Assembly: GCA_011525685.1 (NCBI GenBank)
Contig: WYBW01000120.1
Span: 1 to 64,000, forward strand
DNA from: Verrucomicrobiia bacterium
Lineage (GTDB): Bacteria > Verrucomicrobiota > Verrucomicrobiia > Limisphaerales > JADLHS01
Length of the DNA stretch: 64,000 bases
Direction of reading: 5' to 3'
Both the position numbers and the translations under genes were made by a program. The notes beneath the pieces were generated by a model. That model was not told the DNA's origin. It saw only the letters and a program-made list of their open reading frames with translations, and did no database searches. Positions 1,405 to 33,753 of the stretch are shown piece by piece (position 1 is the first letter of the stretch; each line of letters begins with the position of its first letter).

Positions 1405-1421
1405 GCAACGGTTTGCATGAA
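1400..1421. promoter_or_regulatory. Candidate LacI-family operator
   Basis: A perfect 9-bp inverted repeat (TTCATGCAA and TTGCATGAA separated by CGGT) covers the start codon of the divergent LacI-family gene. It lies about 43 bp upstream of the start of the first island gene at 1464. TGCAA/TTGCA half-sites are typical of LacI-family operators. Its position would allow control of both directions. The function is inferred from position and symmetry. Confidence 0.6.
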
Positions 1422-1463
1422 CCATGCGTTGCGTCGGGTCAAGCTTTGCCCGTGAATGGAGTC

Positions 1464-2246
1464 ATGCGCCGATTGCTTTCTTTGGCTCCGTGGATGCCCG
1501 TAGCTGCGTTCGCCGCCGGGCTGACCAGCACCGACATCAACACGCCCGCGCCCGGCACGACGCGGGAGTTGATCCCCTTCCGCACCTATGACCTTTCCGG
1601 CTTCGGCACGCAGTTCGGCACCCATGAGGCGGAGTGCAAGGGGCGCTTCGCCTGGTGCGAGATCACTGGCGACTTCGACGTGTGGTGCCGCGTGGCGATG
1701 GTGAGCAACCGCGTCGGCCACTGTGCTGCCGCCGGGATCATGGCCCGCGCCGGCACCGATCCGCGCGCGCCTTTCGTCAAAATCGTGGCCCATTCGTTCA
1801 ACCGGGTCTGGAAGGAATACGATCCTTACGCCATGGGCGCGCGCTATGAGGAGGGAGGAAAGCTCACCAAAGACGAGAGCTGGGTGGGCGGCTACATGTA
1901 TTGCATTCCCACCAACAAGGTGAACGCTGACATCCCGTTTCCCCACTGTTGGGTGCGATTGGTGCGCCGCGGCAATGAGTTCACCGGCTACTTCGCCCAG
2001 ACAGTCGGCGTGCCCACGGAAGCGGATTGGCGAAGACACCCCTTTACTTTTGTGCTGGGCAATGGCCCGCCCGGCCCGACGATTCGTGACACGTGGGGCG
2101 TGTATCCCCAAACGATGCTCGTGGGCGTGTGCCTCGAGCCCAACGTCGAGGGCGACCCCCTCCGCGAGGCCTTCGCCAGCTTCCGCGAAATCCACGGCCT
2201 CGAACCGCGCCCGGTTGCCGCCGACGAATCCTCTGGCCCGCAGTGA
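1464..2246 (+). CDS. Secreted concanavalin-like (DUF1349-like) domain protein
   Basis: A 260-aa protein starting at the ATG at 1464, chosen because it directly precedes a signal-peptide-like stretch (RRLLSLAPWMPVAAFAAG). The rest is a single all-beta domain with motifs such as FGTQFGTH, GDFDVWCRV and AGIMAR. The same motifs occur in the N-terminal domain of the next gene, so this looks like a stand-alone version of that domain. It is probably a carbohydrate-binding or lectin-like exported protein. It is the first gene downstream of the candidate LacI operator, 55 bp before the next gene. No catalytic residues are recognisable and the exact family is uncertain. Confidence 0.75.
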   Translation: MRRLLSLAPWMPVAAFAAGLTSTDINTPAPGTTRELIPFRTYDLSGFGTQFGTHEAECKGRFAWCEITGDFDVWCRVAMVSNRVGHCAAAGIMARAGTDPRAPFVKIVAHSFNRVWKEYDPYAMGARYEEGGKLTKDESWVGGYMYCIPTNKVNADIPFPHCWVRLVRRGNEFTGYFAQTVGVPTEADWRRHPFTFVLGNGPPGPTIRDTWGVYPQTMLVGVCLEPNVEGDPLREAFASFREIHGLEPRPVAADESSGPQ

Positions 2247-2301
2247 GTCAAGTCGCCTCCCGCAAATTGCCAAGTCACTGACTGAATCCCGAAACTGAGT
2301 C

Positions 2302-4852: not shown

Positions 4853-6541
4853 ATGAGGCTGTTTCGAGCATGCATTGTCCTGCCCGGCCTTCTGGTCGCA
4901 CGAATGGCAGATTCTGAACCCGAGTTTCGTGAAGGCAGTCGTACCGATCCCGCCATCAATCCGATCCACCAACGCTACGAGTGGCCCAACGACCCGCCCG
5001 CCGACGCGCCGGTCGATCGGTCACGGGATATCCGGCGCATTGTTTTTAGCGGTCGCTACGCCAATTACACCGGTGCCGACACCTGGTATTTCCAGGGCGC
5101 GCCCGACGGTCACCAGTATTCCTGCTGGACGGATGGCGAGCTCGACGGCTTTCGTTGCAACTCGAACATCCGCGCCCAAGCTACGGCTCAAGCCAAGATC
5201 ATCGGCCACGACCCGCTCAATCTCAGGATTGTCAACCTCGGTCGTCTGACCTCGGGCGCCAACTACTACCCTTGCGTGAGCCTCATTGCCGACGGCGTGT
5301 TTTACCTCGGCGTCTATTCCGCCTTCGGTGACGCCGGGCATTACTTCAAGGGTTTCCGCTGGTCGCGTGACTGGGATCATTTCACCGACCGCCTGGACGC
5401 GGGATGGAAGGACCCGTGGTGGACCGATGCCACCGCCGCCGAAGGGAACTTTTTCGGCGAGCAGGGCCAGGCGAAGTTCCGCGTGCCGCACACCGTCAAC
5501 TTCACGGCGACCAACTCGGTCGGGCCGGACGGCTACGTCTATCTCAGCGCCCACGGGTTCGCTGGTGGCAACGGCCGCAACGACTGGGATAAGGGGGATG
5601 CGATCTACCTCTGCCGCGTGCGGCCCGGGCCCGAGAACGTCGCGCGGGCCGCTGCGTACGAGTTCTTCGCCGGCCGCGCGGCCGACGGTTCGGATCGTTG
5701 GACGAAACGCGTGGCGGAGAGCCAGCCGGTCTTGAGCTGGCCCAACCACCTCGGCAGCGAAAGCATCGCGTGGGTGCCCGGCTTGAAGAAGTTCATCCTC
5801 ATCACCTGCCGTTTGAAGGAGAATGAGACCAATCTGCCTTACAACGTGACGATTTTCTGGGAGGCCGACCGCGTCACCGGCCCGTATCGTCTGGTGCATT
5901 ACCTGCGTGACTGGGGGCCGCAGGCGTATTTCCCGAACCTGCCAGCAGCGTTCATCGCGCCCGATGGCCGCTCGGCCTGGCTGTGCGTCTCCTGCAACTA
6001 CTCGGTGCCCGAATACACGCCGCACCAGTGCCGCTATGCGGCTTCGTTGCACGAGGTCCATTTCGATGTCGCTGGCCGCGAATTGCCGCCCGATCCCTCA
6101 CCCGGTCGCAACATTGCCCCGGAAGCGAAAGTCACCGCCTCCACCGTCGAGCCGGGGACGCGCCCGGAAGGCGCGGTGGACGGCCGCGTCTCTCCGGACC
6201 CCGCCCACCGCTGGACCTGCCAGGAAGGGCCGGGCAGTTTCTTGCGCCTCGAGTGGGACACGCCGCGCACCATCCACAAGGTCCGTATCTGGGATGATCC
6301 CTCGACCGAGTCGTGGTTGCAGGAGGGCTACCTGACGTTCGACGGCGGCAGCATGGTCTGGATGCACGCGCCACCGTCGAATCGAGGCGCGACCCCGGCG
6401 GAACTCAACTTTCCACCGCGCGCTACGAAGTGGCTGCGGTTCACGATCACCAAAGGTGTCGCGCCGCTGTGCATCAGCACCAAGACCGAACCTGGCCCGT
6501 TGCTGGGCGTGGCGGAGATTGAAGTTTATCAACCTGACTAA
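4853..6541 (+). CDS. Secreted protein with C-terminal F5/8 type C (discoidin-like) domain
   Basis: A 562-aa protein. The ATG at 4853 opens a signal-peptide-like stretch (RLFRACIVLPGLLVARMADS); a GTG at 4844 is an alternative. The first 400 residues are rich in beta-propeller-like aromatic segments (WYFQGAPDGHQYSCWTDGE) reminiscent of DUF4185 or glycosidase-like propellers, but I cannot assign a family with certainty. Residues from about 420 form a discoidin/F5-8 C fold: NIAPEAKVTAS, an aspartate-rich WTC segment, and a final LGVAEIEVY strand. Such domains bind sugars. It lies 31 bp after the DUF4038 gene, probably in the same transcript. Confidence 0.75.
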   Translation: MRLFRACIVLPGLLVARMADSEPEFREGSRTDPAINPIHQRYEWPNDPPADAPVDRSRDIRRIVFSGRYANYTGADTWYFQGAPDGHQYSCWTDGELDGFRCNSNIRAQATAQAKIIGHDPLNLRIVNLGRLTSGANYYPCVSLIADGVFYLGVYSAFGDAGHYFKGFRWSRDWDHFTDRLDAGWKDPWWTDATAAEGNFFGEQGQAKFRVPHTVNFTATNSVGPDGYVYLSAHGFAGGNGRNDWDKGDAIYLCRVRPGPENVARAAAYEFFAGRAADGSDRWTKRVAESQPVLSWPNHLGSESIAWVPGLKKFILITCRLKENETNLPYNVTIFWEADRVTGPYRLVHYLRDWGPQAYFPNLPAAFIAPDGRSAWLCVSCNYSVPEYTPHQCRYAASLHEVHFDVAGRELPPDPSPGRNIAPEAKVTASTVEPGTRPEGAVDGRVSPDPAHRWTCQEGPGSFLRLEWDTPRTIHKVRIWDDPSTESWLQEGYLTFDGGSMVWMHAPPSNRGATPAELNFPPRATKWLRFTITKGVAPLCISTKTEPGPLLGVAEIEVYQPD

Positions 6542-6597
6542 CGCGCTTCGCCAAGCAAGGCATGCCTTGCCGACTCAAACCAAACCTGCCTGAAACC

Positions 6598-8013
6598 ATG
6601 AACATCCGATTCATTCCCAGCCTGCGGTGGTTCGGTTCGCGCGGGCCGATGCCCGGTCTCGGCACAGTCCTGCTACTCTGCCTCGCGGGCCTGCCGTTGA
6701 AAGCCGGGTCCTCCAGCCGGCATGTCATTACTGAGTTCGGCGCGAAAGGCGATGGGCGCACCCTCAACACCGCGGCCATTAACCGAGCGATCCAAGCGTG
6801 CCACGACACGGGCGGCGGGGTGGTGGTAGTGCCCCCCGGCACCTTCATCGCCGGCACGCTCCGGCTGCTCAGCCACGTGGAACTGCATCTCGAAGCCGGC
6901 GCAACTCTGAAAGGCAGCACCAACCTCGGCGACTATCAACTCGACGGCGTGCGTCGCGGCCTGATTTTTGCCAGGGAAGCGACCGACCTGGCGCTCACCG
7001 GCATGGGAACGATTGATGGCAACTCGGACGCTTTTTTTGACCCGACCCGGATGCACGTCCTGCGCAACCCGGGCTTTGACCGCCGTTTCACGCGGCAGGG
7101 CGAGGCTTACCTTCCGCCCGACACGTTGTTCCCCGCCGGCCCCATCTACTACGAACAACGCCCGGGCACGCTCGTCCAGATGTTCCGTTGCGAGCGCGTC
7201 GTCGTGGATAGCCTCCGTTTCCTCAACCCGCCCGAGTGGACCTTCCGCTTCGGCGACTGCGACGATGTGCTCGTTCACGGCGTCACCATCCGCGCCAATC
7301 TCAAAGTGCCCAACTCGGACGGCATCCACCTGACCACCTCCCGCAATGTGCGGATTTCAGACTGCAACCTCTCGTGCGGGGACGACACGATCGCGATCAC
7401 GGGGTTTGGAGATGAGACCGGCCCGTCGCCGGAAGACCCGCACGGCATGGAGCAGCGGTTCATTTCCTCCGCCATTTTCAGCAAGATGCTCACCAGCGCG
7501 AAGTCGCTCGAAGGCGTGGACCGCGACCAACTCCGCACCGCCATCGCGCGCGGCCTGAAAAATCAGGACGGCCACGCGCGCAGCGAAATCAGCGCCATCT
7601 ACCGCCGCCTCAGCTATGACGAACTCGAGCCGCTCCTGCCTGCCGTCCTCGAAGCCATCGAGAAGCCCGCGCCCAGCGGCGAGATGTTCGCCGACGGCGT
7701 GCGGCTGAATGGCTTGAAAGTGCTGGCTGCGCATCACGTCGAGGAAGGCATGCAGGCCTGCGCCGATTACCTCCGCACCCAGAATCCGTGGGCGAGCGAG
7801 AACCGCACGCCGGAGATTTTGGAAGTCCTCCGCCCGTATGGCGCGCAAGCCCAGCGCATCCTCCCGCATCTGCGCGAGACCGCCGCGATGTTCGACCAGG
7901 GCGAAAAGAACTTCCCCCAACCCCTCAGCGCGCGAAAAGCGAAGGCCGTGCGGGAAGCGATTGAGAGAATCGAAGCCGCGCAGGAGCGGCCCGACTTAAA
8001 GCGGTTGAAGTAG
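6598..8013 (+). CDS. Chimeric ORF: N-terminal GH28/pectate-lyase-like half joined to DUF6288-like C-terminus
   Basis: A 471-aa protein with a signal peptide. Residues about 40-270 match a GH28-type beta-helix: the start motif VITEFGAKGDG, then NSDG at 239-242 and CGDD with the catalytic-pair aspartates at 262-263. The later GH28 signatures (GHG and RxK) are missing. After about residue 275 the sequence changes to a helical region (HGMEQRF, MFADGVRLNGLKVLA, RTQNPWASENRTPEIL) that resembles the C-terminal part of DUF6288 proteins. The reading frame is open throughout, so this looks like a fusion of two unrelated genes. Pectinolytic activity is doubtful because half of the active site is absent. 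Confidence 0.75.
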   Translation: MNIRFIPSLRWFGSRGPMPGLGTVLLLCLAGLPLKAGSSSRHVITEFGAKGDGRTLNTAAINRAIQACHDTGGGVVVVPPGTFIAGTLRLLSHVELHLEAGATLKGSTNLGDYQLDGVRRGLIFAREATDLALTGMGTIDGNSDAFFDPTRMHVLRNPGFDRRFTRQGEAYLPPDTLFPAGPIYYEQRPGTLVQMFRCERVVVDSLRFLNPPEWTFRFGDCDDVLVHGVTIRANLKVPNSDGIHLTTSRNVRISDCNLSCGDDTIAITGFGDETGPSPEDPHGMEQRFISSAIFSKMLTSAKSLEGVDRDQLRTAIARGLKNQDGHARSEISAIYRRLSYDELEPLLPAVLEAIEKPAPSGEMFADGVRLNGLKVLAAHHVEEGMQACADYLRTQNPWASENRTPEILEVLRPYGAQAQRILPHLRETAAMFDQGEKNFPQPLSARKAKAVREAIERIEAAQERPDLKRLK

Positions 8014-9606: not shown

Positions 9607-10917
9607 ATGAAACACACACGACACATTCTCCTCACTGCCCTCCTGCTGACGCCGCTCGGCGTGCTGCTTGCCGCGCCAGGCGCCGCTGTTGCTGCCGAGG
9701 GTGGCAAAAGCCCAGAGGCACTACGCGAGCGTCCGCTCCAGTCGGCTCAGCCTCGGCAAGTTGTCGGCGCAATGCATGTCATCGTCAACCAACCCGCCCC
9801 CGGCCGCGCCTTTGGCTGGCCCGCCAATGGCGGCCTCTGGAGTTGGGGGAACGAAATCCTCGTCATGTATCTCGACTGCCCCTACCAAGACCACCCCGGC
9901 TTTTCGAATCACGACTCCGACCAGGAACATCCCAGCGCCCGGTGGATGACCTCGCGCAGCACCGACGGCGGGGTGACTTGGACCGAACATCGCCCGGCCT
10001 TTACCGACCCCCGCGCGAACCGCAAGATGCTGAAGCCGCAGACCCTCACCGCGCCGCTGGACTTCCGCGCTCCGGACACCCTCGTCAATTTTCACTGGGA
10101 CGGTCTCCAGCCCGGGGCGCGAACCTACTTCTATTACTCCGAAGATCGCGGCCGTACGTGGCGGGGGCCTTTCGACAACATCCCACTGTTCGACTTCAAG
10201 GCGATGACGGGGCGAACGGATTACGAAGTCACTGGCCGCCACCGTCTGACGGCCTACATGTCCTGCACCGAGGCGTCGGACGCTGCGTGCGTGCGCGAGT
10301 CCAGCTACGCGATTACGACCGAGGACGGCGGTGTCACGTGGATGAAGGGGCCACGCATCAGCCGCGAACTGCCGCCCTGCGGGAAAGGCCACAAGATCGA
10401 ATATGGCGCCATGCCTTCCACGGTTCGGGCGGATACCAGCACTATGGTGTGTGCGTTTCGCAGCGGCTACACGCCGGCCAAGGGCCGCCGCACCGGCTGG
10501 ATCGACATCACCCGCAGCACGGACAACGGCCAAACCTGGCGGGTGGTGAACGAACGCCTGATGGAAATGCCCACGCTGAACAGCAGTCCGCCGGCGTTGA
10601 GCCGATTGCCTTCCGGCCGGCTGGTGTGCTCCTGGGGATGGCGCCTGCCGGATGACGGCAGCGGCCCCACGGCGATCCAGGCCCGCACCAGTGACGACAA
10701 CGGCACCACGTGGGGCGACACCCTCACGCTGCGCCGCGACGGGTTTGATTACGACATTGGCTACTGCCGGCAGGCGGTGCGCCCGGACAGCAAGGTCGTC
10801 ACGGTCTATTACTACCGGACGAAAGCCGACGGCCAAAGCCCAACCTACATCGCCGCCACGATCTGGGATGCAGGCGCGATCGTTGAACCAACCCACAAAG
10901 GCGACTCATCAAAATGA
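9607..10917 (+). CDS. Secreted BNR-repeat sialidase-like protein
   Basis: A 436-aa exported protein; the start at 9607 precedes a clear signal peptide (HILLTALLLTPLGVLLAAPG). It contains at least five Asp-box-like repeats of the form S/T-x-D-x-G-x-T-W (STDGGVTW, SEDRGRTW, TEDGGVTW, STDNGQTW, SDDNGTTW). These are the hallmark of six-bladed sialidase-type propellers. It is a candidate exo-glycosidase, although Asp boxes are structural and do not prove sialidase activity. Its stop codon overlaps the start of the following chimeric gene by 4 bp (ATGA), which indicates translational coupling. Confidence 0.8.
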   Translation: MKHTRHILLTALLLTPLGVLLAAPGAAVAAEGGKSPEALRERPLQSAQPRQVVGAMHVIVNQPAPGRAFGWPANGGLWSWGNEILVMYLDCPYQDHPGFSNHDSDQEHPSARWMTSRSTDGGVTWTEHRPAFTDPRANRKMLKPQTLTAPLDFRAPDTLVNFHWDGLQPGARTYFYYSEDRGRTWRGPFDNIPLFDFKAMTGRTDYEVTGRHRLTAYMSCTEASDAACVRESSYAITTEDGGVTWMKGPRISRELPPCGKGHKIEYGAMPSTVRADTSTMVCAFRSGYTPAKGRRTGWIDITRSTDNGQTWRVVNERLMEMPTLNSSPPALSRLPSGRLVCSWGWRLPDDGSGPTAIQARTSDDNGTTWGDTLTLRRDGFDYDIGYCRQAVRPDSKVVTVYYYRTKADGQSPTYIAATIWDAGAIVEPTHKGDSSK

Positions 10918-11687
10918 AAATCCTCCGCAAGAACGCGCGTGCTTCCCGGCCCATGCTCGACGCAGTCCTCCTGCTCTGCCTCGCGGGCCTGCCGTTGAAA
11001 GCCGAGTCCTCCAGCCGGCATGTCATTACTGAGTTCGGCGCGAAAGGCGATGGGCGCACCCTCAACACCGCCGCCATCAACCGAGCCATCCGGGCGTGCC
11101 ACGACGCAGGCGGCGGGATGGTGTGGGTGCCCGACGGCGCGGACCTGCCCCGCGTCCGCAGTCTGACCGAACTGGGCACCCGCGAGGCGCGGCAGGCGTT
11201 CTGGGCACATGAGCTCAACAGCGGCTGCGCTGGCCACACCTACGGCGCCAGCGGCATCTTTCAGATCAATCGCCCCGACTGGAAATTTGGCCAGGCCTTC
11301 TCGGGGCTGGACTGGGGTCAGCTCCCTTGGCGCGACGCCATGCACCTGCCGGGCTCACGGCAGATCGGACTGGGCGCGGCGCTGTTACGCTCGCTGCCGT
11401 GGCATGAAATGGCGCCGGCCACCAACGGCTTCAAAGGCTCGACTGCCGCCGCCATCACGCCGGACGCCGAACATGCCATGGCGTTCACTCACTCCGGCAA
11501 GGCCATCACCGTGACTCTCGACCGCTTCCCGGGTGTGGTGAGCGCACGCTGGTTCGATCCCACGACTGGCGACACCCGCGCCGCCTCGGCCGCGCCGCTG
11601 AGTCCGCGCGGCGAACACACTTTCACCCCGCCCGGAAAAAACGCGGCCGGCGACGCGGACTGGGTGCTGGTGATCCAGGCTGAATGA
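10914..11687 (+). CDS. Chimeric ORF: GH28 5' end fused to DUF4038 3' end
   Basis: A 257-aa ORF. The first about 70 codons are nearly identical to the 5' part of the upstream GH28-like gene (about 6660-6830: signal peptide, VITEFGAKGDGRTLNTAAI). At about 11125 it switches to a close copy of the last third of the DUF4038 gene (from about 4258: VPDGADLP, GHTYGASGIFQINRPDW, GDADWVLVI). The frame is kept. The junction lies in a GGTGGTG/GTGCCC-rich stretch similar in both parents. It contains neither a complete GH28 nor a complete DUF4038 catalytic domain, so it is probably non-catalytic, although the C-terminal binding domain could still be secreted. Confidence 0.8.
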   Translation: MKILRKNARASRPMLDAVLLLCLAGLPLKAESSSRHVITEFGAKGDGRTLNTAAINRAIRACHDAGGGMVWVPDGADLPRVRSLTELGTREARQAFWAHELNSGCAGHTYGASGIFQINRPDWKFGQAFSGLDWGQLPWRDAMHLPGSRQIGLGAALLRSLPWHEMAPATNGFKGSTAAAITPDAEHAMAFTHSGKAITVTLDRFPGVVSARWFDPTTGDTRAASAAPLSPRGEHTFTPPGKNAAGDADWVLVIQAE

Positions 11688-14702: not shown

Positions 14703-14956
14703 TTGCCGCCGCAGCCATCGCACTCAACGGCAAGCACGCGTCGATCTTCACTCGCTCCGGTAAGGCATCACCAATATGCTCGACTGCTTCGCCGGCGCGG
14801 TGAGCATCCGCCGGTTCGATCCAATGACCAACGACAACTAAGCTGCGTTCGGGTGTGCTGCTGAGTCCGCGCGGCGAACACATCTTCACCCCGCCCGGCA
14901 ACAACGCCGCCGGCGACGCGGACTGGCTGTTGGTGCTGAACGCGAAAGGCAAATAA
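14703..14956 (+). pseudogene. Decayed 3'-end remnant of a DUF4038-type gene
   Basis: The DNA between the propeller gene and the nucleoside hydrolase still encodes, across shifting frames, the last about 80 residues of the DUF4038 C-terminal domain. Recognisable pieces are ALNGKH, a GAVSIRRFDP-like segment, then SPRGEHIFTPPG, NNAAGDADW and LLVL before a TAA at 14954-14956. Frameshifts and an in-frame TAA near 14839 break it. No start or upstream domain is present. From 14957 to 15194 I see nothing further. Confidence 0.75.
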
Positions 14957-15194: not shown

Positions 15195-16202
15195 ATGCGA
15201 ACGTCCGCATTTCTGGTCCCTGCAACGGCCCGGGGCCGCCGCCGCTTTCTGAAACAACTCGCCGGACTGGCCGCCACCGGACTGGCTGTGCGCGGCACCG
15301 GCACCTTGTGGGGCGCACCGGCGCAGGCTTCCCCCAAGCCGCGGCGAATCATCGTGGACGCCGACACGGCGAATGAAATTGACGACGCGTTCGCACTGAC
15401 CCGCGCGCTGCTGGAGCCGGGCTTCCACGTTGAGGGCATTACGTCCGCCCAATGGCACACGCAAGAAGAGTCTCCGCGCGACACCGTCGGGCTGAGCCAG
15501 CAGTTGAACGAGGAACTGCTGCGCGTGATGAACCGCGCGGACGTGCCGCACCCCATCGGGTCGAACTTCCCGCTGGTCAGATCGGTTAAGCCCCAGCCTT
15601 CGCCGGCCGCGCAGCACATCATCCGCAAGGCTCTTGAGACGCCCGACGGGGAAAAGCTCATCGTGGCGATCCTCGGCCCCTGCACCAACCTCGCCTCGGC
15701 CGTGCTCCTCGAGCCGGCGATCATTCCCAAGGTCTCGTGCCACTTCATCGGCCTGCGCCACGACCCCAAGCAGCGCCTCTGGAGCCGCGACGAGTTCAAC
15801 ACCAACAACGACCCCAACGCGCTGGACACGCTGCTCAATACGCCCGGGCTGGAGTTCCATCTCATGACCGCCTCCGCGTCGCAGAGCCTGGTCTTCGAAA
15901 AGGCCGACGTGGACCGGCGCCTGAAGGGCCGGGGCGGCGTGGCGGATTTTCTCGTGCGCCTCTGGGACAACTACGACCGCGCGTGGCAGCGGCGGGTCGC
16001 GCCAACCAAGGCGACGTGGGTGATGTGGGACATCGCGTTGATTGCGGCCATCGCCCGGCCGGAACTGGCCAAGGCCGTCACCCTCGACGCGCCGCCGGGC
16101 AACCTCAAACGCCCCATCTCGGTCTGGGTGGAGATTGATGCGAATCGGATGCGCGAGGATTTCTGGCAATGCCTCGAACACTGGCTGGCCGGGAAAAAAT
16201 GA
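15195..16202 (+). CDS. Nucleoside hydrolase family protein with Tat-like signal
   Basis: A 335-aa protein; the start at 15195 puts a twin-arginine-like motif (RGRRRFLKQLAG) before a hydrophobic segment, so it is probably exported. IIVDADTANEIDD is the N-terminal metal-binding aspartate cluster of the inosine/uridine-preferring nucleoside hydrolase family. ILGPCTNLA and a later MWDIALIAAI segment fit the family core. The usual DTDxGxDD is altered to DADTANEIDD. These enzymes hydrolyse N-ribosidic bonds, but the export signal and neighbours suggest a different glycoside substrate here. It overlaps the next gene by 4 bp (ATGA). Confidence 0.85.
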   Translation: MRTSAFLVPATARGRRRFLKQLAGLAATGLAVRGTGTLWGAPAQASPKPRRIIVDADTANEIDDAFALTRALLEPGFHVEGITSAQWHTQEESPRDTVGLSQQLNEELLRVMNRADVPHPIGSNFPLVRSVKPQPSPAAQHIIRKALETPDGEKLIVAILGPCTNLASAVLLEPAIIPKVSCHFIGLRHDPKQRLWSRDEFNTNNDPNALDTLLNTPGLEFHLMTASASQSLVFEKADVDRRLKGRGGVADFLVRLWDNYDRAWQRRVAPTKATWVMWDIALIAAIARPELAKAVTLDAPPGNLKRPISVWVEIDANRMREDFWQCLEHWLAGKK

Positions 16203-17662
16203 AACGCCCGCACCCCGGACATCCCTCGCTTGAGACCGGCGTCCGCAGGATTTCCTCTTCTCTCCCGGACAGGATTCAGCCCGCGACCACCGTTACGGCA
16301 CGACCTGAGCGTGATTGGACAGTGACTCACAGGCCGAAATCACTGCGCCGGCGTGCGGCGTTTGTTCCTCGTGACTGGGGAGGTTGCCTGCTGACAGCCT
16401 GCATCGTTGGAATGGTTGGATTTCAGGCCGTCGCAGAGGCCGACGTCGTCCACGCCGACCGGGTCGCGACCGTGACGAACATTCCGGGCTGCGTGGCGTT
16501 CTGGGATTTCGTGAAACACGAGCCGGGTGGGCAGCGGCGGTTCACCGCCCACGTGCCGCCGGGCACGACCAATGACTTCCCACTCGATGCGGGTAACTAC
16601 GTCCGCGACTACTGGGGCGAGGGACGCGAAGCCACCTACGCCGACTTCCCGCTGCTGGGTCGCGGGCCATTCGGCAACGCCATCCGGATCATGAAAGAGA
16701 CCGATCCGACCTTTCGCCCCTTCCTGTTTGTGCCGCGGGCCCGGCTGCACGACTCGCCCCTGGACATCAAAGGACCGGGCAAATCCGTGAGCGTGGTGGT
16801 CTGGGCCATTCGAGAGAGCGGCAACCATGCACTGGCGGGCATCTGGCACGAGGGCACTGACCTGAAGCAGGCTTCCACCGCGAACATCCGCCGGGTCGAG
16901 CGCGGCCAGCGGCAATACGCACTCTTTGCCGGGCTGAACGTCGAGGGGAGCGCTTGCGGCCACGTCTCTGAAAACGGCTCCGGGTCATTCCTGAATCGCT
17001 ATGCCCTGCACAAGTGCAACTCCGCCGGCGTGTCGCCCGCGGTGCCTGCGGATTCACCTGAATCGGTGCTCGACGCCTCCTGGCAGTGTTTCGCCATGAC
17101 CTTCGACAACGAGAAGAACGAACTCACGGGCTGGCTCGATGGCGTGGCTGGCGACCGCTGGCTGGAGAACCCGAAGAGCGACCGGCTGATCTCTTCCGCC
17201 CACCGAGCCTACATGCAGGACCACTACGCCCGCACGCCGGAGCGCGAATCTGCCGAAGACCCAACCTTCCCGAAGGACCAGTATTTTAACCCGCCCGAGG
17301 ACACGCCGGTCGCCACGACCCTGGTTGCCGAAACCGCCGAGGGGCGCACCGAACTGCGCGCGTATCGCCATACCAAAGTGCGGGTTGTTCTGCGCAAAGA
17401 CGCCGACGGCATCCTCACCGAAGCCAGCCGCGACCTGGTGGCTTTGCGGCTGAACCCGTGGTGGTTTCCACACGACATTTATACACCCTCGGACGGCGGC
17501 AGCGGCGGCCCTTTCACCATTGGCCGCGTGATTCACAGTTCGCGCGGCGTGGGCTTCACCGGCTGGATTGGCGGCGTGGCGGTGTTCAACCGCGCCCTGA
17601 CCGCTGAGGAGCTTCAGCGTCTGGCAGCCCTTCGCCGCCAATCGCCCCTCCCGCCTCCCTGA
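16199..17662 (+). CDS. Secreted LamG/concanavalin-like domain protein
   Basis: A 487-aa ORF translationally coupled to the preceding hydrolase by a 4-bp overlap. The hydrophobic export segment (LLTACIVGMVGFQAVAEA) lies about 60 residues in, so an internal GTG at 16322 may be the true start. The mature part begins NIPGCVAFWDF and ends with TGWIGGVAVFNRALTAEELQRL, the usual last strands of a LamG-type jelly roll found in many verrucomicrobial and planctomycetal proteins. It probably binds a glycan. No catalytic residues are recognised. Confidence 0.75.
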   Translation: MKRPHPGHPSLETGVRRISSSLPDRIQPATTVTARPERDWTVTHRPKSLRRRAAFVPRDWGGCLLTACIVGMVGFQAVAEADVVHADRVATVTNIPGCVAFWDFVKHEPGGQRRFTAHVPPGTTNDFPLDAGNYVRDYWGEGREATYADFPLLGRGPFGNAIRIMKETDPTFRPFLFVPRARLHDSPLDIKGPGKSVSVVVWAIRESGNHALAGIWHEGTDLKQASTANIRRVERGQRQYALFAGLNVEGSACGHVSENGSGSFLNRYALHKCNSAGVSPAVPADSPESVLDASWQCFAMTFDNEKNELTGWLDGVAGDRWLENPKSDRLISSAHRAYMQDHYARTPERESAEDPTFPKDQYFNPPEDTPVATTLVAETAEGRTELRAYRHTKVRVVLRKDADGILTEASRDLVALRLNPWWFPHDIYTPSDGGSGGPFTIGRVIHSSRGVGFTGWIGGVAVFNRALTAEELQRLAALRRQSPLPPP

Positions 17663-17742: not shown

Positions 17743-18024
17743 GTGGCGAGGGTGACCAATCCCGTTGGCCGGTGCGTCACCGCCTTCCCTCACTCCGGCG
17801 AATCCATCCCCATCGGGTTGAACCTTTTCGCCGGCGCTGTGGGCACCCGCTGGTTTCTTACGGCGACGAGCCAGGCCATTGCCGTGCTGGGTTTACCCTT
17901 TGTCCCGCGCGGTCAACTCCCCCTCATCCTTCCCGGCAACAACGCCGCCGGCGACGCGGACTGGGTGCTGGTGATCGAGAATGCAACGCCCTCCGCATCC
18001 GCCCCGCAAGGCGCGCGCCGTTAA
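17743..18024 (+). pseudogene. Second decayed 3'-end remnant of a DUF4038-type gene
   Basis: An open stretch whose translation keeps the order of the DUF4038 C-terminal domain: PHSGESI, NLFAGAVGTRWF, VPRGQ, LPGNNAAGDADWVLVIE. It lacks any upstream domain and has diverged strongly in the middle. It follows the LamG gene and precedes the DUF1080 gene. It is probably a remnant and not a working gene. Confidence 0.7.
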
Positions 18025-25046: not shown

Positions 25047-25262
25047 TCCACCGTCTTCGATACCTTCCGGTGGCCGCAGTTTGAGCTGGGGAACGCAACC
25101 GTCCCGGGTGCCGAATCCGGCGTCACGCCGGATTCTTCGTCCTCACAAAATTCTTCCCCGAAAAAATCAGAGGAACGAGGTTTTCGGCGCGACGCCGAAA
25201 ACCGCAGGCGAGACGCCCGCGCTCCCCAGAATGTGATTGCGCAGATTGACGCCGCGACGGCG
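25047..25262 (+). pseudogene. Internal fragment of an MmeI-like gene interrupted by a palindromic insert
   Basis: The translation begins TVFDTFRWPQFELG, matching the end of the target-recognition part of the full MmeI-like gene downstream (TVFDTFPWPQFELG near 27935). It resumes as VIAQIDAATA, matching IAKIDAVAATA of the full gene. Between them, about 25095-25229 is filled by hairpin-rich DNA (GCCGAATCCGGCGTCACGC, TTTTCGGCGCGACGCCGAAAA). The fragment has neither the nuclease nor the methylase motifs. It is a decayed paralogue lying just upstream of the intact gene. Confidence 0.75.
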
Positions 25263-25392
25263 CTTCGCGCTGGAGCAGGCGTCCAACCGCAGATGCGCAC
25301 GGGTCTGGACGGGTGTCGCCGGCCCTCCGCCGTCTCTCACACTCATTTCCTTCCGCATTGCCGCCCGCCCGCTGTTCCGATAAAAAACCGCC

Positions 25393-28389
25393 ATGCCAAA
25401 TCGGGAAAAACTCGCCGAATTCACCGCCTGGTGCGCGGAGCACGTCACCGGCGACGAAAAAGGTCAGGCGCAAATCTTCTTGGATCGGCTCTTTCAAGCG
25501 TTCGGCCAGCCCGGCTCCCTCGATGTTGGCGGGCAACCCGAGTTCCGCGTCCGCAAAGCCGATGAAGACGGCGGCGGCACGTCGTTCGCCGACCTCGTCT
25601 GGAAACCCGTCGTGCTCATCGAAATGAAGAAGCGCGGCGAGAATCTCCAGAAGCATTACCGCCAGGCGTTCGATTACTGGACGCGCCTCGTGCCCAATCG
25701 TCCGCGCTACGTCGTGCTCTGCAACTTCGACGAGTTCCGCGTCTATGATTTCGACACCGACCTCGACACGCCCAAGGACACCGTCGCGACGAAGGATTTG
25801 CCCGAGCGCTGGGGGCCGCTCGCCTTTCTTTCACCCGGCAATCCCAAGCCAAACTTTGAGAACGACCGCGTTGCCGTCACCACACAGGCCGCCGACAAAC
25901 TCGCCGAGTGTTTCCGCACCCTTATCAAACGCGGCGAATCGCGCGAGATGGCGCAGAAGTTCATCCTGCAAATGCTCGTGGCGCTCTTTGCCGAGGACAT
26001 TGATCTGCTGCCCAAATACTTCGTCACGAACCTGCTGAACGAATGTAAAACCCCCGCCGACGGATTCGACATCATCGGCGGCCTGTTCGAAGCGATGAAC
26101 AGCAAAGCGCCCAAGACCGGCGGGCGGTTCAAAGGCGTTCCCTACTTCAACGGCGGGTTGTTCGCCCAACCCGCCCGCATTGAAATCAACGACCTCGAAC
26201 TGGCTTTGCTGAAAAAAGCCGCCGAACAAAACTGGTCCAAGGTCCAACCGGAAATCTTCGGCACACTTTTCCAGCACTCGATGGACGACGAGGAACGCCA
26301 CGCCTACGGCGCGCACTTCACGCACCCGTCCGACATCATGAAGATCGTCAAGCCGACGATCACCGACCCGTGGCAGGAGCAGATTGAGAGCGCCAAAACC
26401 TTCAAGCGCCTCCGCGAACTGCGCGACCGGATGCACACCTTTCGCGTGCTCGATCCCGCGTGCGGCTCGGGCAACTTCCTCTACATCGCCTACCGCGAAT
26501 TGAAACGGCTGGAGGCACGCATCTACGAACGCATTGACACGGAATTCCCCAGGCACGCCAGCGAAGGCGAGGGCCAGATGCGCTTCAGCTACCTGAGCGC
26601 GCAAAATTTCTACGGCCTCGACATCCTGCCCTTCGCCATCGAGATCGCGAAAGTGACGATGATGATTGCGCGCAAGCTGGCGATTGACGAACTGCACATC
26701 AGCGAACCACCGCTCCCGCTCGACAATCTCGATAACAACTTCATCGCCGCTGACGCGCTGCTCACGCCCGAAGGTCTGCCCGCGCAATGGCCCAAAGCCG
26801 ATGTCATCATCGGCAATCCGCCGTTCCTCGGCTCACGCTACTTCGCGAAGGAACACGGTTATGAATACGTGCGCAAAGTTCACGCCGTATTCCCGGATGT
26901 CCCGAAGATGGCAGACTTCTGTGTGTATTGGTTTCGCAAAGCCGCTGACCATTTGCCCGCTTGCACCGCTGCTGATCCCGTTGCTGGCCGCGCCGGACTT
27001 GTCGGCACGCAGAACATCCGCAATAACGAATCGCGTGAAGGTGGACTCGATTACGTCGCAAAGACCGGCGCAATTGTAGAAGCCGTGGAAAACCAGCCGT
27101 GGTCGGGCGAAGCCAACGTCAGCGTTTCCATCGCCAACTGGATGAAAACGGAGGACGCCGCGCTCCTTCCCAAGACGCGCAAGCTCTGGTTCAAAGTCCA
27201 GCCGGATGCGGGAGCAAAGAAGCTCCGCAAACGCGGAAGCGGTTCAGCGACCAAGGAATACGAACTCAACTTCCGCAACTGTGAAGTCATTAACTCGGCG
27301 TTGTCGGATGAAACCGATGTCGGGACGGCAAACGTGCTTGGCATCAATGCAGAGCCGAAGCGGGTCTTCCAAGGACAGAATCCCGTTCACGACGGATTCA
27401 AACTTGAGCCAAGCGACGCCGCAAAGCTGCTGAAGGATCATCCAGATCATCGAGAAGTGATTTTCCCCTATCTGGTCGGGATGGACTTGGTCACGGGTGG
27501 CGCGCCGGGTATTTGGATCATCGACTTCGGGCAGCGAGATATGCTGGAGGCAATGAGATATTCAGCCGCTTTCGAGATTCTGAAGGAGAAAGTGATGTCG
27601 GATGTGCTGGCCAAGGCTGAGGCAGAGAAGGCTGCGACGGGCAAGGAAACTACTCGTTGGACTCGGATGGCCGAACGCTGGTGGCAGTTCCGTGATTGGA
27701 TGCCCGGCACGATGGCAGTGGTCAATGCGAGCCATCGCTACATCGTCTGTCCGCGTGTTACCAAGCGACCGACGTTTGAGTTTGTTTCACGCGACGTGCA
27801 TCCAGACGGCTCGCTTGCGGTCTTCGGTTTCGATGACGACTACAGCTTCGGCATCCTGCAATCGAACGCTCACTGGCAATGGTTTGTTGCCAAATGCTCC
27901 AAATTGACTGAGCGCTTTCGCTATACCTCCGACACCGTCTTCGACACGTTCCCGTGGCCGCAGTTTGAGCTTGGTAGCAGCCGACGTGAGTCGGCTCAAA
28001 CTTCTTCCCCGAAAGATCAGAGCGGACTCACGTCCGCTGCTACGATTGCGAAGATTGATGCCGTGGCCGCCACCGCGCGGGAGGTGCGCCGCGTGCGCGC
28101 CGAGGCGTTGCGGAATTTGAAAGGCGGCCTGCGCGCCCTCTATCGCACCCTCGAATTGCCCGGTGCGAATCCGCTGAAGGACGCCCACGCCGCGCTGGAC
28201 GCCGCCGTCCTCGCCGCCTACGGCTTCAGCGCCCAAAAGGATTTGCTCGCCCAACTCCTCGCCCTGAACCAGCAAGTCGCCGCGAAGATTGAAAAGGGCG
28301 AACCCGTCACCGCCCCCGGCGTGCCGAAGAATTATCCCGACGCGAAGAAACTGGTGACGGAGGATTGTATCAAACCGACCGGGCTTTGA
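25393..28389 (+). CDS. MmeI-like (type IIL) restriction-modification enzyme
   Basis: A 998-aa single-chain endonuclease plus adenine methyltransferase. The nuclease motif D67-x9-E77-x-K79 (within FADLVWKPVVLIEMKKRG) matches the MmeI D-x9-ExK pattern. Helical spacer: about 150-330. Methylase motif I, DPACGSGNF, lies at 354-362 and the amino-methylase motif NPPF at 475-478. The target-recognition domain follows, about 610-860, then the helical C-terminal domain from about 885. A hairpin-forming insert occupies residues 861-884 between these last two domains. It should modify and cut at an asymmetric site, cutting about 20 nt away as in the family. The gene ends 3 bp before the DUF429-like gene. 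Activity is unproven. Confidence 0.93.
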   Translation: MPNREKLAEFTAWCAEHVTGDEKGQAQIFLDRLFQAFGQPGSLDVGGQPEFRVRKADEDGGGTSFADLVWKPVVLIEMKKRGENLQKHYRQAFDYWTRLVPNRPRYVVLCNFDEFRVYDFDTDLDTPKDTVATKDLPERWGPLAFLSPGNPKPNFENDRVAVTTQAADKLAECFRTLIKRGESREMAQKFILQMLVALFAEDIDLLPKYFVTNLLNECKTPADGFDIIGGLFEAMNSKAPKTGGRFKGVPYFNGGLFAQPARIEINDLELALLKKAAEQNWSKVQPEIFGTLFQHSMDDEERHAYGAHFTHPSDIMKIVKPTITDPWQEQIESAKTFKRLRELRDRMHTFRVLDPACGSGNFLYIAYRELKRLEARIYERIDTEFPRHASEGEGQMRFSYLSAQNFYGLDILPFAIEIAKVTMMIARKLAIDELHISEPPLPLDNLDNNFIAADALLTPEGLPAQWPKADVIIGNPPFLGSRYFAKEHGYEYVRKVHAVFPDVPKMADFCVYWFRKAADHLPACTAADPVAGRAGLVGTQNIRNNESREGGLDYVAKTGAIVEAVENQPWSGEANVSVSIANWMKTEDAALLPKTRKLWFKVQPDAGAKKLRKRGSGSATKEYELNFRNCEVINSALSDETDVGTANVLGINAEPKRVFQGQNPVHDGFKLEPSDAAKLLKDHPDHREVIFPYLVGMDLVTGGAPGIWIIDFGQRDMLEAMRYSAAFEILKEKVMSDVLAKAEAEKAATGKETTRWTRMAERWWQFRDWMPGTMAVVNASHRYIVCPRVTKRPTFEFVSRDVHPDGSLAVFGFDDDYSFGILQSNAHWQWFVAKCSKLTERFRYTSDTVFDTFPWPQFELGSSRRESAQTSSPKDQSGLTSAATIAKIDAVAATAREVRRVRAEALRNLKGGLRALYRTLELPGANPLKDAHAALDAAVLAAYGFSAQKDLLAQLLALNQQVAAKIEKGEPVTAPGVPKNYPDAKKLVTEDCIKPTGL
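27974..28043. repeat. Palindromic element inserted in frame in the MmeI-like gene
   Basis: The element starts GTAGCAGCCGACGTGAGTC and ends GACTCACGTCCGCTGCTAC. The two 23-bp ends are inverted copies with only two mismatches. It encodes SRRESAQTSSPKDQSGLTS within a reading frame that otherwise runs from WPQFELG into IAKIDAV. Paralogous fragments nearby have other palindromes at the same place. Confidence 0.8.
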
Positions 28390-28392
28390 GTC

Positions 28393-29175
28393 ATGCCACA
28401 ATTCGAGCGATACATCGGCATTGATTACTCCGGAGCGGAAACGCCTACTTCTAGTTTGAAGGCGTTGCAGGTGTATGCGGCGGATTGGGTCATGCCGCCC
28501 AAGGAAGTCCCACCACCCACGAGTCCACGCAAGCACTGGACACGGCGAGGCGTTGCCGAGTGGTTGGTGTCGGAATTGTCCGGGCAGAAGCCGACCCTGG
28601 TTGGAATAGACCACGGGTTTTCATTTCCGATCCGATATTTCGAAAAGCACCGCCTGCCGCCCGACTGGCCCAAGTTTCTGGATGATTTCCAAAACCACTG
28701 GCCGACGGACGGAGCAAATACCTACGTATGTTTTGCGCGGGATGGCAGTTGCGGCCAGGCGGCGAAAAGGCAAGGTGATCCGGCGTGGCTACGATTGACG
28801 GAGCAATGGACCGCCACGGCCAAGTCGGTGTTTCGGTTTGATGTGCAAGGACAGGTGGCAACCTCCACACATGCCGGTTTGCCGTGGCTGCGGTTCATCC
28901 GCGAGCAATGCGGCAAGCAGGTGCATTTTTGGCCGTTCGATGGATGGGAAATTCCAACGGGGCGTTCGGTGGTGGCGGAGGTTTATCCGTCGCTTTGGAT
29001 GCGACGGTTTCCCGCAGAAGATCGCAATGGAGATCAGCAGGCGGCGTACGCAGTGGCGGCATGGTTGCGGCGCGCGGATACGGATGGATCGCTGGCGAGA
29101 TATTTAAACCCGTCGCTTGAACCGCAGGAGCGGACACTGGCACAAGTTGAGGGTTGGATTCTGGGTGTGACATGA
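28393..29175 (+). CDS. DUF429-like RNase H-fold protein downstream of the RM gene
   Basis: A 260-aa soluble protein starting 3 bp after the MmeI-like stop. IGIDYSG (Asp11) opens a ribonuclease H-like first strand and LVGIDHGFSFP (Asp73) is a second. VVAEVYPSLW and GDQQAAYAVAAWL near the C-terminus match the pattern of DUF429 predicted nucleases or other RNase H-fold enzymes. It may be an accessory nuclease of the restriction locus, but no such role is established. Its stop overlaps by 4 bp the start of the next fragment (ATGA), so it may have been translated with another copy. Confidence 0.7.
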   Translation: MPQFERYIGIDYSGAETPTSSLKALQVYAADWVMPPKEVPPPTSPRKHWTRRGVAEWLVSELSGQKPTLVGIDHGFSFPIRYFEKHRLPPDWPKFLDDFQNHWPTDGANTYVCFARDGSCGQAAKRQGDPAWLRLTEQWTATAKSVFRFDVQGQVATSTHAGLPWLRFIREQCGKQVHFWPFDGWEIPTGRSVVAEVYPSLWMRRFPAEDRNGDQQAAYAVAAWLRRADTDGSLARYLNPSLEPQERTLAQVEGWILGVT

Positions 29176-29816
29176 AGAAGGCGTGTAAACCAAAGCCCAG
29201 CGCCGCTAGGCGCGACATCGTTGTAGAATCCGCCGCCCAAAAACGTCGAGGCTCCGTAGGAGCGACGTCCTCGGAATATGCCGCTCCTGACGGAGCTAAA
29301 TCCAAATCCACGACCGCAAACTACAAAGATGCCGCCCCTGACGGGGCTGCGCCGCAAACCGCCGCGTTGTCCCGCGACGCCATCGCGAAGATTGCCGCCG
29401 TGGCCGCCGCCGCGCGGGAGGGGCGTGCTGAGCGCGCCGAGGCGTTGCGGAATTTGAAAGGTGGCCTGCGCGCCCTCTATGGCACCCTCGAATGGACTCA
29501 CTCGCGCCCGCTCGCCCGGCCCTCTCGGGCTTTTCGCCTTCGCAAAACTCCTTTCGCCGTTTCCCAAACGGCTCAAGTGCCCGGCGCAAATCCGTTGAAA
29601 GACGCCCACGCCGCGCTGGACGCCGCCGTCCTCGCCGCCTACGGCTTCAGCGTCAAAAAGGACTTGCTCGTCCAACTCCTCGCCCCAAACCAGCAAGTCG
29701 CAGCAAAGATCGCGCAAGGCTAGCCGGTCACCGCCCCCGGCGTGCCGAAGAATTATCCCGACGCGAAGAAACTGGTGACGGAGGATTGTATCCGTCCAGT
29801 GGAGGCTAGCGCATGA
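29172..29816 (+). pseudogene. Third MmeI-like fragment (C-terminal domain) with two repeat inserts
   Basis: Starting at an ATG coupled to the DUF429-like gene, the first 70 codons are hairpin-rich repeat DNA (GCTCCGTAGGAGC; GCTCCTGACGGAGC; GCCCCTGACGGGGC). From about 29380 it becomes the MmeI C-terminal domain (AIAKIAAVAAAARE, ALRNLKGGLRALYGTLE). A second insert follows (about 29493-29575), then PGANPLKDAHAALDAAVLAAYGFS. A TAG at 29721 replaces the GAG found in the intact gene. After it the frame continues through PGVPKNYPDAKKLVTEDCI to a TGA at 29816. It cannot be a functional enzyme. Confidence 0.8.
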
Positions 29817-30190
29817 AACGCACCCGGAGCGCGGTGTTCACGCCGCTTCACCGTCCGCACGTCGGGAGGTGTCGGATTATTTTGTCGCGCTCTTGTTTTC
29901 GCCCGTCTAAGCGGCCTGAAGGCCGCGCTCCTGAATCCCAACGGGATTCCAGCCTTCAGCCCAAGGTTGCGAGGCACGAACTACCCTGGGTCAGGTGTTT
30001 TATTCTTCCACAACCCCAACGGGGTTGCATCACCTTCGCCATGGAACGATGCAACCCCGTTGGGGTTGGTGCTGATTTTGATTCGTGTTCCCAGGGTAGT
30101 CGTTCCTGGCCAGTCCGGCTCGGACCTCCCGCCCTGGGCTGGATGACATTGCCCCGTTGGGGCAATCAGGCTGCCCCGCGCGCACCCTGC
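29817..30190. repeat. Cluster of nested palindromes between two RM 3'-end copies
   Basis: At least four perfect hairpins with AAC or GTT loops: GAATCCC/GGGATTC around 29934-29950, an AACCCC..GGGGTT pair, and ATTGCCCC/GGGGCAAT near 30150. A 20-bp perfect inverted repeat has arms at 30012-30031 and 30048-30067. Outer 11-bp arms ACTACCCTGGG and CCCAGGGTAGT lie at 29980-29990 and 30090-30100. There is no coding content I can support. The cluster is flanked on both sides by copies of the 3' end of the MmeI-like gene. Confidence 0.75.
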
Positions 30191-30280
30191 GTCACCGCGC
30201 CCGGCGTTCCGAAGAATTATCCCGACCCAAAGAAACTGGTGACAGAGGATTACATCAGGCCAGCGAAAGGCAATGCGTGA
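30191..30280 (+). pseudogene. Fourth RM 3'-end copy (last 29 codons)
   Basis: Encodes VTAPGVPKNYPDPKKLVTED then a short different tail and a TGA at 30278-30280. It aligns with the last codons of the intact gene with about 90 percent identity over the conserved core. Its stop overlaps the GTG start of the following small gene, the arrangement expected if an original RM gene had been followed by that gene. Confidence 0.8.
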
Positions 30281-30480
30281 GCACTCGCAGACAAAACGAA
30301 AACAAATTCGGCGCTTGGGACGAGTTGGCAGGTGGCGGGCGACGTTACCGGCTCGATGTGCAAGGCAAGCTCGGTTGGAGTGCGCGTTACCTCAAGGAGG
30401 TGGACGTGAACGAAACCACGGTGCGATTTTGGCAGGAGATATACGATGACACCGGCAAGCTGGTGGAAACGCACGAATAA
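30277..30480 (+). CDS. Small protein, first of a possible toxin-antitoxin-like pair
   Basis: A 67-aa protein with GTG start overlapping the RM remnant stop by 4 bp (GTGA). The sequence is rich in Gly, Trp and Tyr: FGAWDELAGGGRRYRLDVQGK, then LGWSARYLKEVD and TVRFWQEIYDDTGKLVETHE. After the TAA the same frame continues with YPVDKGHQKV before a TAG. One base change from AAA or similar to TAA would explain a truncation by about ten residues; this is inference from reading on. I do not recognise a characterised family. The next small acidic protein starts 42 bp downstream. Confidence 0.6.
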   Translation: MSTRRQNENKFGAWDELAGGGRRYRLDVQGKLGWSARYLKEVDVNETTVRFWQEIYDDTGKLVETHE

Positions 30481-30522
30481 TACCCGGTGGATAAAGGTCA
30501 TCAGAAAGTGTAGGATGCCGGC

Positions 30523-30783
30523 ATGACGATCACAAAGCAGACTGTCGCGGACAAGATCGCCGCATATCTCCATCACGAGATATCGTTGGCCCAGTTGGTG
30601 GATTGGTCGGAGCGGGCGATCATGGACGGGGAGCTTGCTGAACACGATGCCGGGACATTGTCCTCGGTCATCGGTCGTCTGGGCGTGGCTGACGTCCGGG
30701 CCTTTGGTCTGACTTGGGAGGATTGTGAGGATTTGTTGCGTCAGCTTGGTTTTGCGCCGCGCGTGGAAGTTATCGCAGCCTGA
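30523..30783 (+). CDS. Small acidic protein, second of the pair
   Basis: An 86-aa, helix-rich, acidic protein: KQTVADKIAAYLHHEISLAQL, then WSERAIMDGE, GTLSSVIGRLGVADVRAFGLTWEDCEDLLRQLG. It has the character of an antitoxin or adaptor: small, negatively charged and next to a small basic/aromatic partner. Its function is not known to me. It sits between two RM 3'-end copies, so it may be cargo of the restriction locus. Confidence 0.65.
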   Translation: MTITKQTVADKIAAYLHHEISLAQLVDWSERAIMDGELAEHDAGTLSSVIGRLGVADVRAFGLTWEDCEDLLRQLGFAPRVEVIAA

Positions 30784-30860
30784 ACTCGCCGTGCTCGCCC
30801 CGTGGAGTGGCACCGGCAGTGGGAACTCGGTTGGCCGGGCGGACTACTCCACGGGGCGAG

Positions 30861-31036
30861 CCGCCTACGGTTTCAGCGCCAAAAAGCATTTGCTCGCTCA
30901 TCTTCTGGCACTCAAACCAAGCCGTCGCCGCGAAGATTGAAAACCGCTTACCCGACACCGCCCCGAGGTGCCGAAGAATTACCCCGACGCGAGGAAGTTG
31001 CTGACGGAGGATTGTATCCACCGTGCCGAACTCTGA
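30861..31036 (+). pseudogene. Fifth RM fragment: decayed 3' end
   Basis: Encodes AAYGFSAKKHLLAHLLAL, then crosses two frameshifts through VAAKIEN and ends VPKNYPDARKLLTEDCI before a TGA at 31034-31036. It aligns with the last about 55 codons of the intact MmeI-like gene. The reading frame is broken by single-base indels, one in an A run near 30916 and one near 30965. The next gene begins about 8 bp later. Confidence 0.75.
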
Positions 31037-31044
31037 ATTGAAAA

Positions 31045-31763
31045 ATGGGCCGGCCAGGAAAGATCAAACATCCCATCGGACTGGAGGTGGCCCCGCGCAT
31101 GGTCTTCAGCAAGAAGCGGCCGGAGGACCGCATGAGGATCTTCCGCCAATGGCGGCGGTGGTGGCGCGGGACTTTGGCGGCTGCGTGATCAGCAAACAGA
31201 ACCTCTGCGAATGGCGGGCCGGCGGTTCTGTGGAGTGGCAGGCGCGGCAGGAAACCCTGGCCCAGGCCCGCGAGCTGACCGCCGATGCCGCGCAACTGTC
31301 CGCGGCCACGAAGGGGAAATTGACGGACCATCTGGCCACGGTGCTGGCCGCCCACGACGCCTCCGCACTCGCAGGCTGGGACGGGGAATTGAGCGAGACG
31401 CTTCGCCGCCAGTTGCGCGCGTTGCGCGGGCTGTGCCAGGACATCGTGGAGTTGCGCCGGGGCGATCACGGCGGCGCGCGGCTGCAGATGGAGCGCGAGC
31501 GGCTGGAGCGGGAGCGGAGAAAGACCGAGGAGGAAACGGTGGCGCAATTCGAGCGCTGGGCGGAGACCACCCAGGTGCGGGACTGGATCTGCCAGACGTG
31601 GGTCAGCCCGCAAGAGCGGCGGCGGCGATTGCGCGAGATTTTTGGCCTGCCGCCAGAACCGGCACCGGACAAAGACACCCGCTCGCCCGGGTCAAACCCA
31701 GTCAAACCCAGTCATAGTGATTCCGATTTAGCCAAACCAGATGAACTCCCTGACCCAACTTAA
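31045..31763 (+). pseudogene. Conserved helical protein of verrucomicrobial type, frameshifted near its N-terminus
   Basis: An ATG at 31045 opens MGRPGKIKHP, the usual start of a family I have seen in related genomes, but that frame closes at about 31185. From about 31149 a different frame carries the rest: AAVVARDFGGCVISKQNL, EWRAGG, then a coiled, charged region (LRALRGLCQDIVELRRGDHGGARL and ERERLERERRKTEEE) and EIFGLPPEPAP. The switch of frame points to a +1/-1 frameshift, or to a sequencing or assembly error. The intact C-terminal part alone is 204 aa. The family has no known function. Confidence 0.55.
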
Positions 31764-31835: not shown

Positions 31836-31879
31836 AGTTGCACGATCGCGGCGCTCTTCCGAGTCGCCGCTACGCAGTC

Positions 31880-33753
<1,874 letters not shown>

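Follow-up and report, generated by a model that had tools for sequence, protein, structure and literature searches.

The site around an MmeI-type restriction-modification (RM) gene in a genome of the Verrucomicrobiia is probably a stack of scars, left behind by the serial displacement of RM genes in place. The gene lies within a stretch of 64,000 nucleotides (the window) that belongs to contig C101 in a draft genome of 6.73 Mb, and fragments of MmeI genes flank it, all in one orientation and each adjoining different genes. The site was read as a record of displacement because relics at such sites match the alleles of other genomes and because foreign RM genes precede MmeI tails in related genomes. 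The extra copies of the gene end are best read as the tails of predecessor alleles that were displaced. The material used for comparison consisted of draft and metagenome-assembled genomes, none of which was from the same species.

The resident gene (25393-28389, plus strand) encodes a protein of 998 aa, in which the MmeI_N, MmeI_hel, MmeI_Mtase and MmeI_TRD domains were all above their Pfam cut-offs. The MmeI_C match fell below its cut-off (22.7 bits versus 27), and the PADLOC Type IIG model covered residues 4-997. On this series of domains within a single protein, the product is predicted to be an MmeI-type Type IIG enzyme; the gene is seemingly an intact DNA-cutting defence gene for which both cleavage and methylation are predicted. 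A palindromic element (inverted repeat I4, 27974-28043) is located in the coding linker between the TRD and the C-terminal part, and a related element is present at approximately 77.6 kb on the same contig. Other MmeI alleles carry other palindromes at this linker position.

Four copies of the 3' end were aligned in register at 28306-28395 (the gene itself), 29727-29816, 30191-30280 and 30953-31042. Comparison of the gene with the downstream DNA by blastn gave matches to relic 2 at 29575-29792 (90%, E = 2e-82) and 29382-29493 (89%, E = 2e-37), to relic 3 at 30190-30257 (90%, E = 6e-20) and to relic 4 at 30860-31018 (83%, E = 1e-40). These values, from 6e-20 to 2e-82, are far beyond chance and confirmed the four copies that had been reported in an earlier, sequence-only reading of this DNA. 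The extent of about 60 to 90 nt given there was too short for copy 2, which covers 29197-29792, and for copy 4, which starts at 30860. A search of the rest of the 6.7-Mb genome for MmeI tail copies yielded one 26-nt match and nothing comparable.

Relic 2 (29197-29815, plus strand) is a tail of the type found at loci L143 and L140 of related genomes. Its MmeI homology (29197-29792, about 600 nt) is interrupted by an 81-nt insert at 29494-29574 and contains an in-frame TAG. The interval from relic 2 to relic 3 is occupied by a palindrome cluster (29824-30189) that had also been described previously and that comprises the inverted repeats I7, I9 and I11. Relic 3 (30190-30280, plus strand) retains the last 25 or so MmeI codons and the stop; it was 90% identical to the resident gene over 68 nt, and its best match was L049 (90% over 73 nt). 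Relic 4 (30860-31018, plus strand), which is about 160 nt long and has a hairpin just to its left, corresponds to MmeI residues ~941-993, is frameshifted, and was 86% identical to L049, compared with 80% for the resident gene. A fifth fragment, absent from the sequence-only reading, was found upstream of the gene (25049-25274, plus strand); it represents residues ~845-900 of an L007-type allele, with 83% identity to L007 over 226 nt.

The last 66 nt of MmeI homology in the resident gene (28306-28371, plus strand) have been exchanged and were identical at 66 of 66 positions to relic 2 (29727-29792). An identical core shared by copies 1 and 2 had been recognised earlier, at a length of almost 60 nt. 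If the neighbouring identity is 85-90%, the probability of 66 straight matches is approximately 2e-5 to 1e-3. In the stretch compared with a genus mate, G011, the window shared only the MmeI gene (25351-28371) and the enolase gene (31878-33252); the two MmeI genes were alike along the body, and identity dropped to 74% in the last 66 nt. When the tail was analysed alone, grouping of the window gene with the G011 gene on contig C5 was rejected (p-AU 0.011). Furthermore, the two G011 tails, which lie on different contigs (L006 on C5 and L143 on C78), formed a group with support of 100/99, a sign that tails may be homogenised within one genome. The 66/66 identity, the rejected grouping and the association of the G011 tails together argue that MmeI tails have been exchanged through homologous recombination. 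The earlier suggestion that the gene end was hit repeatedly and rebuilt is upheld to this extent, since the identical 66-nt core points to rebuilding by exchange.

Relics that are copies of the resident gene should resemble the resident gene most. The first part of relic 2 was 88% identical, over nearly 300 nt, to the tails of L143, from the genus of the window, and of L140, from a different genus in that family, and it has in common with both of them a linker insert that is absent from the resident gene. This homology begins abruptly. The upstream fragment matched L007 over 226 nt including the linker, compared to 42 nt only for the resident gene. At L034, the relic showed 76% identity to an L027-type gene versus 62% to the L034 gene itself, and at L226 an MmeI-type gene that is about 25% identical to the window gene is followed by two tails of the window type (67%). 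The 3' end of a predecessor allele was thus found behind a newcomer gene for the first part of relic 2, for L034 and for L226, and the sequences of the latter two loci appear to be clearer on the origin of the tails than the relics of the window. Not every relic is informative, since five of them (at L010, L037, L075 and L081, and the second fragment at L022) were nearest to their own gene, at 82-85%. A tree of the tails, which are short, resolved little, with good support for 2 of 24 inner branches; it left relics 2 and 4 unplaced, and their sisterhood with the resident gene was not rejected (p = 0.47 and 0.26, respectively).

RM genes of other kinds were found beside MmeI ends in the related genomes. 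L140 has an N4-type methylase gene between MmeI residues 1-131 and 837-997. At L143, MmeI residues 1-100 and 840-997 are separated by restriction ORFs of HaeII-like and NotI-like type together with a D12 methylase. A methylase of the L140 kind (91%) adjoins an MmeI head at L242, so that MmeI heads have been kept at all three of these loci. At L222, two MmeI tails lie behind a Type III mod-res pair, and at L230 one MmeI tail lies behind an Eco57I-type gene. The genes downstream were also retained. Three genes, here named CCYWE, small and helical, stand behind an intact MmeI gene at L008, and they stand in the same order behind a bare MmeI tail at L140; homologs of the small and helical genes were found behind the MmeI tails at L222, and homologs of the CCYWE and helical genes at L230. 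The downstream genes of a predecessor were therefore kept behind its remnant, as seen from L008 versus L140 and from the helical gene behind relic 4. The pattern at L140, L143, L222, L230, L242 and L008 is displacement in place, in which the RM body is swapped and the ends and neighbours stay. A before/after strain pair for such a displacement was not found.

Orphan MmeI tails outnumbered orphan heads by 10 to 5 in an even draw over 286 genomes of the class, a difference that was not significant (p = 0.30). A 2.29-Mb survey, which took in 0.75 Mb of the own genome, gave raw same-strand counts of 29 tails downstream, 15 tails upstream, 8 heads upstream and 8 heads downstream; these counts include reciprocal matches and repeated domains (for example L057, on the genome's own contig C14), and no clean statistic is claimed from them. 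A strict rule that only tails remain was dropped, given the unclean raw counts and the ratio of 10 tails to 5 heads.

The first cargo gene of the window (28393-29175, plus strand) encodes a conserved protein of 260 aa without a named family. The DUF429-like character proposed for it earlier was not borne out, as the protein had no Pfam match and only a weak match to PRK14495. Homologs were detected in 17 other genomes of the 286 searched, and within the short stretches inspected no recognised RM gene was located near them, which counts against displacement. The small-protein pair (30281-30783, plus strand) consists of ORF 30157-30480, the start of which falls inside relic 3, and ORF 30523-30783; neither gave a Pfam family above the cut-off. 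The helical gene (31023-31763, plus strand) lies directly behind relic 4 and was 63% identical to L008 10989-11588. It is followed by a convergent enolase gene (31880-33172, minus strand), whose own 3' end is similarly scarred in related genomes. Searches of the cargo proteins against PDB sequences returned no match worth naming. None of the window cargo proteins belongs to a named family, and their retention is not claimed to be beneficial.

From these data we infer the order of the layers, the recombination pathway and the route of DNA entry as follows. Incoming DNA with another RM gene, either an MmeI allele or a gene of a different type, would replace most of the resident MmeI gene, often bringing its own downstream gene or genes. 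The 3' end of the predecessor and whatever stood behind it would remain, and sometimes the 5' end as well. Repeated events would push the older tails and their neighbours downstream, giving layers. Judging by position and neighbours only, the oldest layer would be that of relic 4 and the helical gene, and relic 2 would probably be the youngest. One side of the incoming DNA would pair with the conserved gene end, and the other would join within or behind the resident gene. The likely route is either homologous recombination at the conserved gene end combined with a non-homologous joint opposite (homology-facilitated illegitimate recombination) or the insertion of a circle through the shared tail. 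In 750 kb of the same genome, few further copies of the elements that border the relics were present, and that dispersed repeats served as joining points is a guess.

Several other explanations were weighed against serial displacement. Tandem MmeI genes, all complete and accompanied by downstream genes of their own, might have been reduced to tails by deletions, as the sequence-only reading had also proposed. The fragments are co-oriented and each is beside different genes, as such decay would leave them, and internal deletion of MmeI does occur: a 263-aa open frame at L225 (G250:C87, 7816-8607) joins MmeI residues 1-182 to residues 966-995, a deletion with both ends retained. This explanation is nevertheless unlikely, because none of 80 relatives had a second MmeI copy of >300 aa. 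The arrangement earlier linked to decay of tandem paralogues, with a complete RM gene where each fragment now stands, was not found as such; the genes that precede the tails in relatives are often of a different RM kind and not MmeI genes. A site-specific mobile element of the integrase type, which inserts at the 3' end of a gene, replaces that end by the copy it carries and subsequently loses its integrase, would account for the complete gene end, the last 66 nt of which equal relic 2, for the recurrence of the order gene, cargo, tail at L010, L034 and L075, and for the similar tail copies behind enolase. Scanning of the cargo proteins with Pfam revealed no integrase, transposase or recombinase family. 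Moreover, the starts of the relics vary widely, between residues ~845 and 975 (of 998) in MmeI and between residues 311 and 408 (of 430) in enolase, so that there is no fixed attachment core, and the MmeI heads kept at L140, L143 and L242 would not be expected. Since the cargo tested has no integrase family and the fragment starts vary, an element of this type is improbable; the earlier proposal of insertion at a single gene end that is rebuilt by the inserting element is disfavoured on these points and on the better matches of several relics to alleles from other genomes.

Very little probability was given to self-duplication, in which breakage or template switching where the gene ends would pick up cargo and copy the gene's own tail a second time. 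The upstream fragment and the first part of relic 2 are unlike copies of a resident gene, and so are the relics of L034 and L226. The five relics that were nearest to their own gene agree with self-duplication, and the palindromes, present in the gene linker and to the left of both relic 3 and relic 4, could promote breaks. It is also doubtful, and held to be of low probability, that units of a cargo gene and a conserved-gene tail circulate as integrase-free DNA circles, which enter at matching 3' ends (MmeI, enolase) by homologous recombination and restore the gene each time, as a regular form of gene acquisition.

The 3' end of enolase recurred behind the enolase gene in several genomes, with three relics in G004, two in G009 and one each in G001 and G010; in the last two, a phosphoglucose isomerase gene stands between enolase and the relic. 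Every enolase fragment found was a 3' part. In G011, 123 nt of enolase tail with a terminator are present at both ends of an insert of cargo and MmeI (94%), in G033 an enolase copy lies beyond an MmeI head, and in G004 enolase copies stand on both sides of a Type ISP-like gene. Direct target copies on both sides of an RM insert were represented by the enolase tail in G011 and G033. In the window there were none for enolase, as no enolase copy was found beyond MmeI on its far side. The recurrence of the enolase tail behind the gene and around inserted genes, often including the terminator, was seen at L124, L125, L126, L127, L135 and L242 and spans several genera and two families.

Prophages and islands integrate at the 3' ends of genes such as icd, guaA and trmE. 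Integration at trmE has been described (PMC8409611). The window is similar in that the gene end is restored and a displaced tail lies behind cargo; it differs in that its cargo, often a single gene, had no integrase family in the scan and that there is no fixed core. The process proposed for the window resembles two published ones, the displacement of type VI secretion (T6SS) effectors and the insertion of RM genes with a long duplication of the target. In Vibrio, T6SS effector genes are displaced sequentially (Kirchberger 2017, PMC5361080): a newcomer and its downstream partner replace the resident, the predecessor 3' end and its partner shift downstream in layers, and homology-facilitated illegitimate recombination has been proposed. 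The newcomer with a downstream gene and the layered 3' ends are common to both, whereas the window has RM genes, its downstream genes are not known immunity partners, and heads are sometimes kept. Insertion of RM genes with a long and variable target duplication (Nobusato 2000, cited in PMC3031569) is described as leaving RM genes flanked by long direct target copies without a known recombinase. The enolase-flanked islands of G011 and G033 fit this description; unlike it, the MmeI tail copies are stacked and derive in part from other alleles, and the window has no far-side enolase copy. The displacement of rhs C-terminal parts, by homologous recombination through the conserved part (Jackson 2009, PMC2935791), also leaves a single intact gene trailed by strings of conserved fragments, which vary in length and each precede a different sequence. 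The variable part of rhs is fused in frame to the core; in contrast, whole separate genes follow the conserved tail in the window.

Swaps of RM genes are usually inferred from before/after comparisons; here the scars were readable in single genomes, as displaced RM tails and heads with foreign RM genes in between, and as downstream genes that recur from one family to another. The turnover of RM loci can thus be counted without close strains. The enolase scars suggest that conserved gene ends may be general landing points for foreign DNA in Verrucomicrobiota.

Several minor observations were made. A C-terminal motif like EQAYxDAAHYYSxKEExPPY was seen by eye to be common to MmeI-type and Type ISP-like ends (L022, L143, L124). 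Elsewhere in the window, ORF 10914-11687 consists of the start of the 6562-8013 gene (29 residues, 97%) fused to the last ~190 residues of the 2302-4821 gene (89%), and two more, more diverged tail copies of the latter gene are located at 14732-14944 and 17743-17979. On the minus strand of L152 (G000:C7, own genome), positions 139-773 hold a tail copy (residues 615-727, 75%) downstream of 1386-3569. At L141 (G002:C377), the end of one gene and the start of the next (6269-7707) repeat at 16141-16319, about 9 kb away with the MmeI locus between; the identity was 100% over the first 31 residues of the second gene, up to the contig end.
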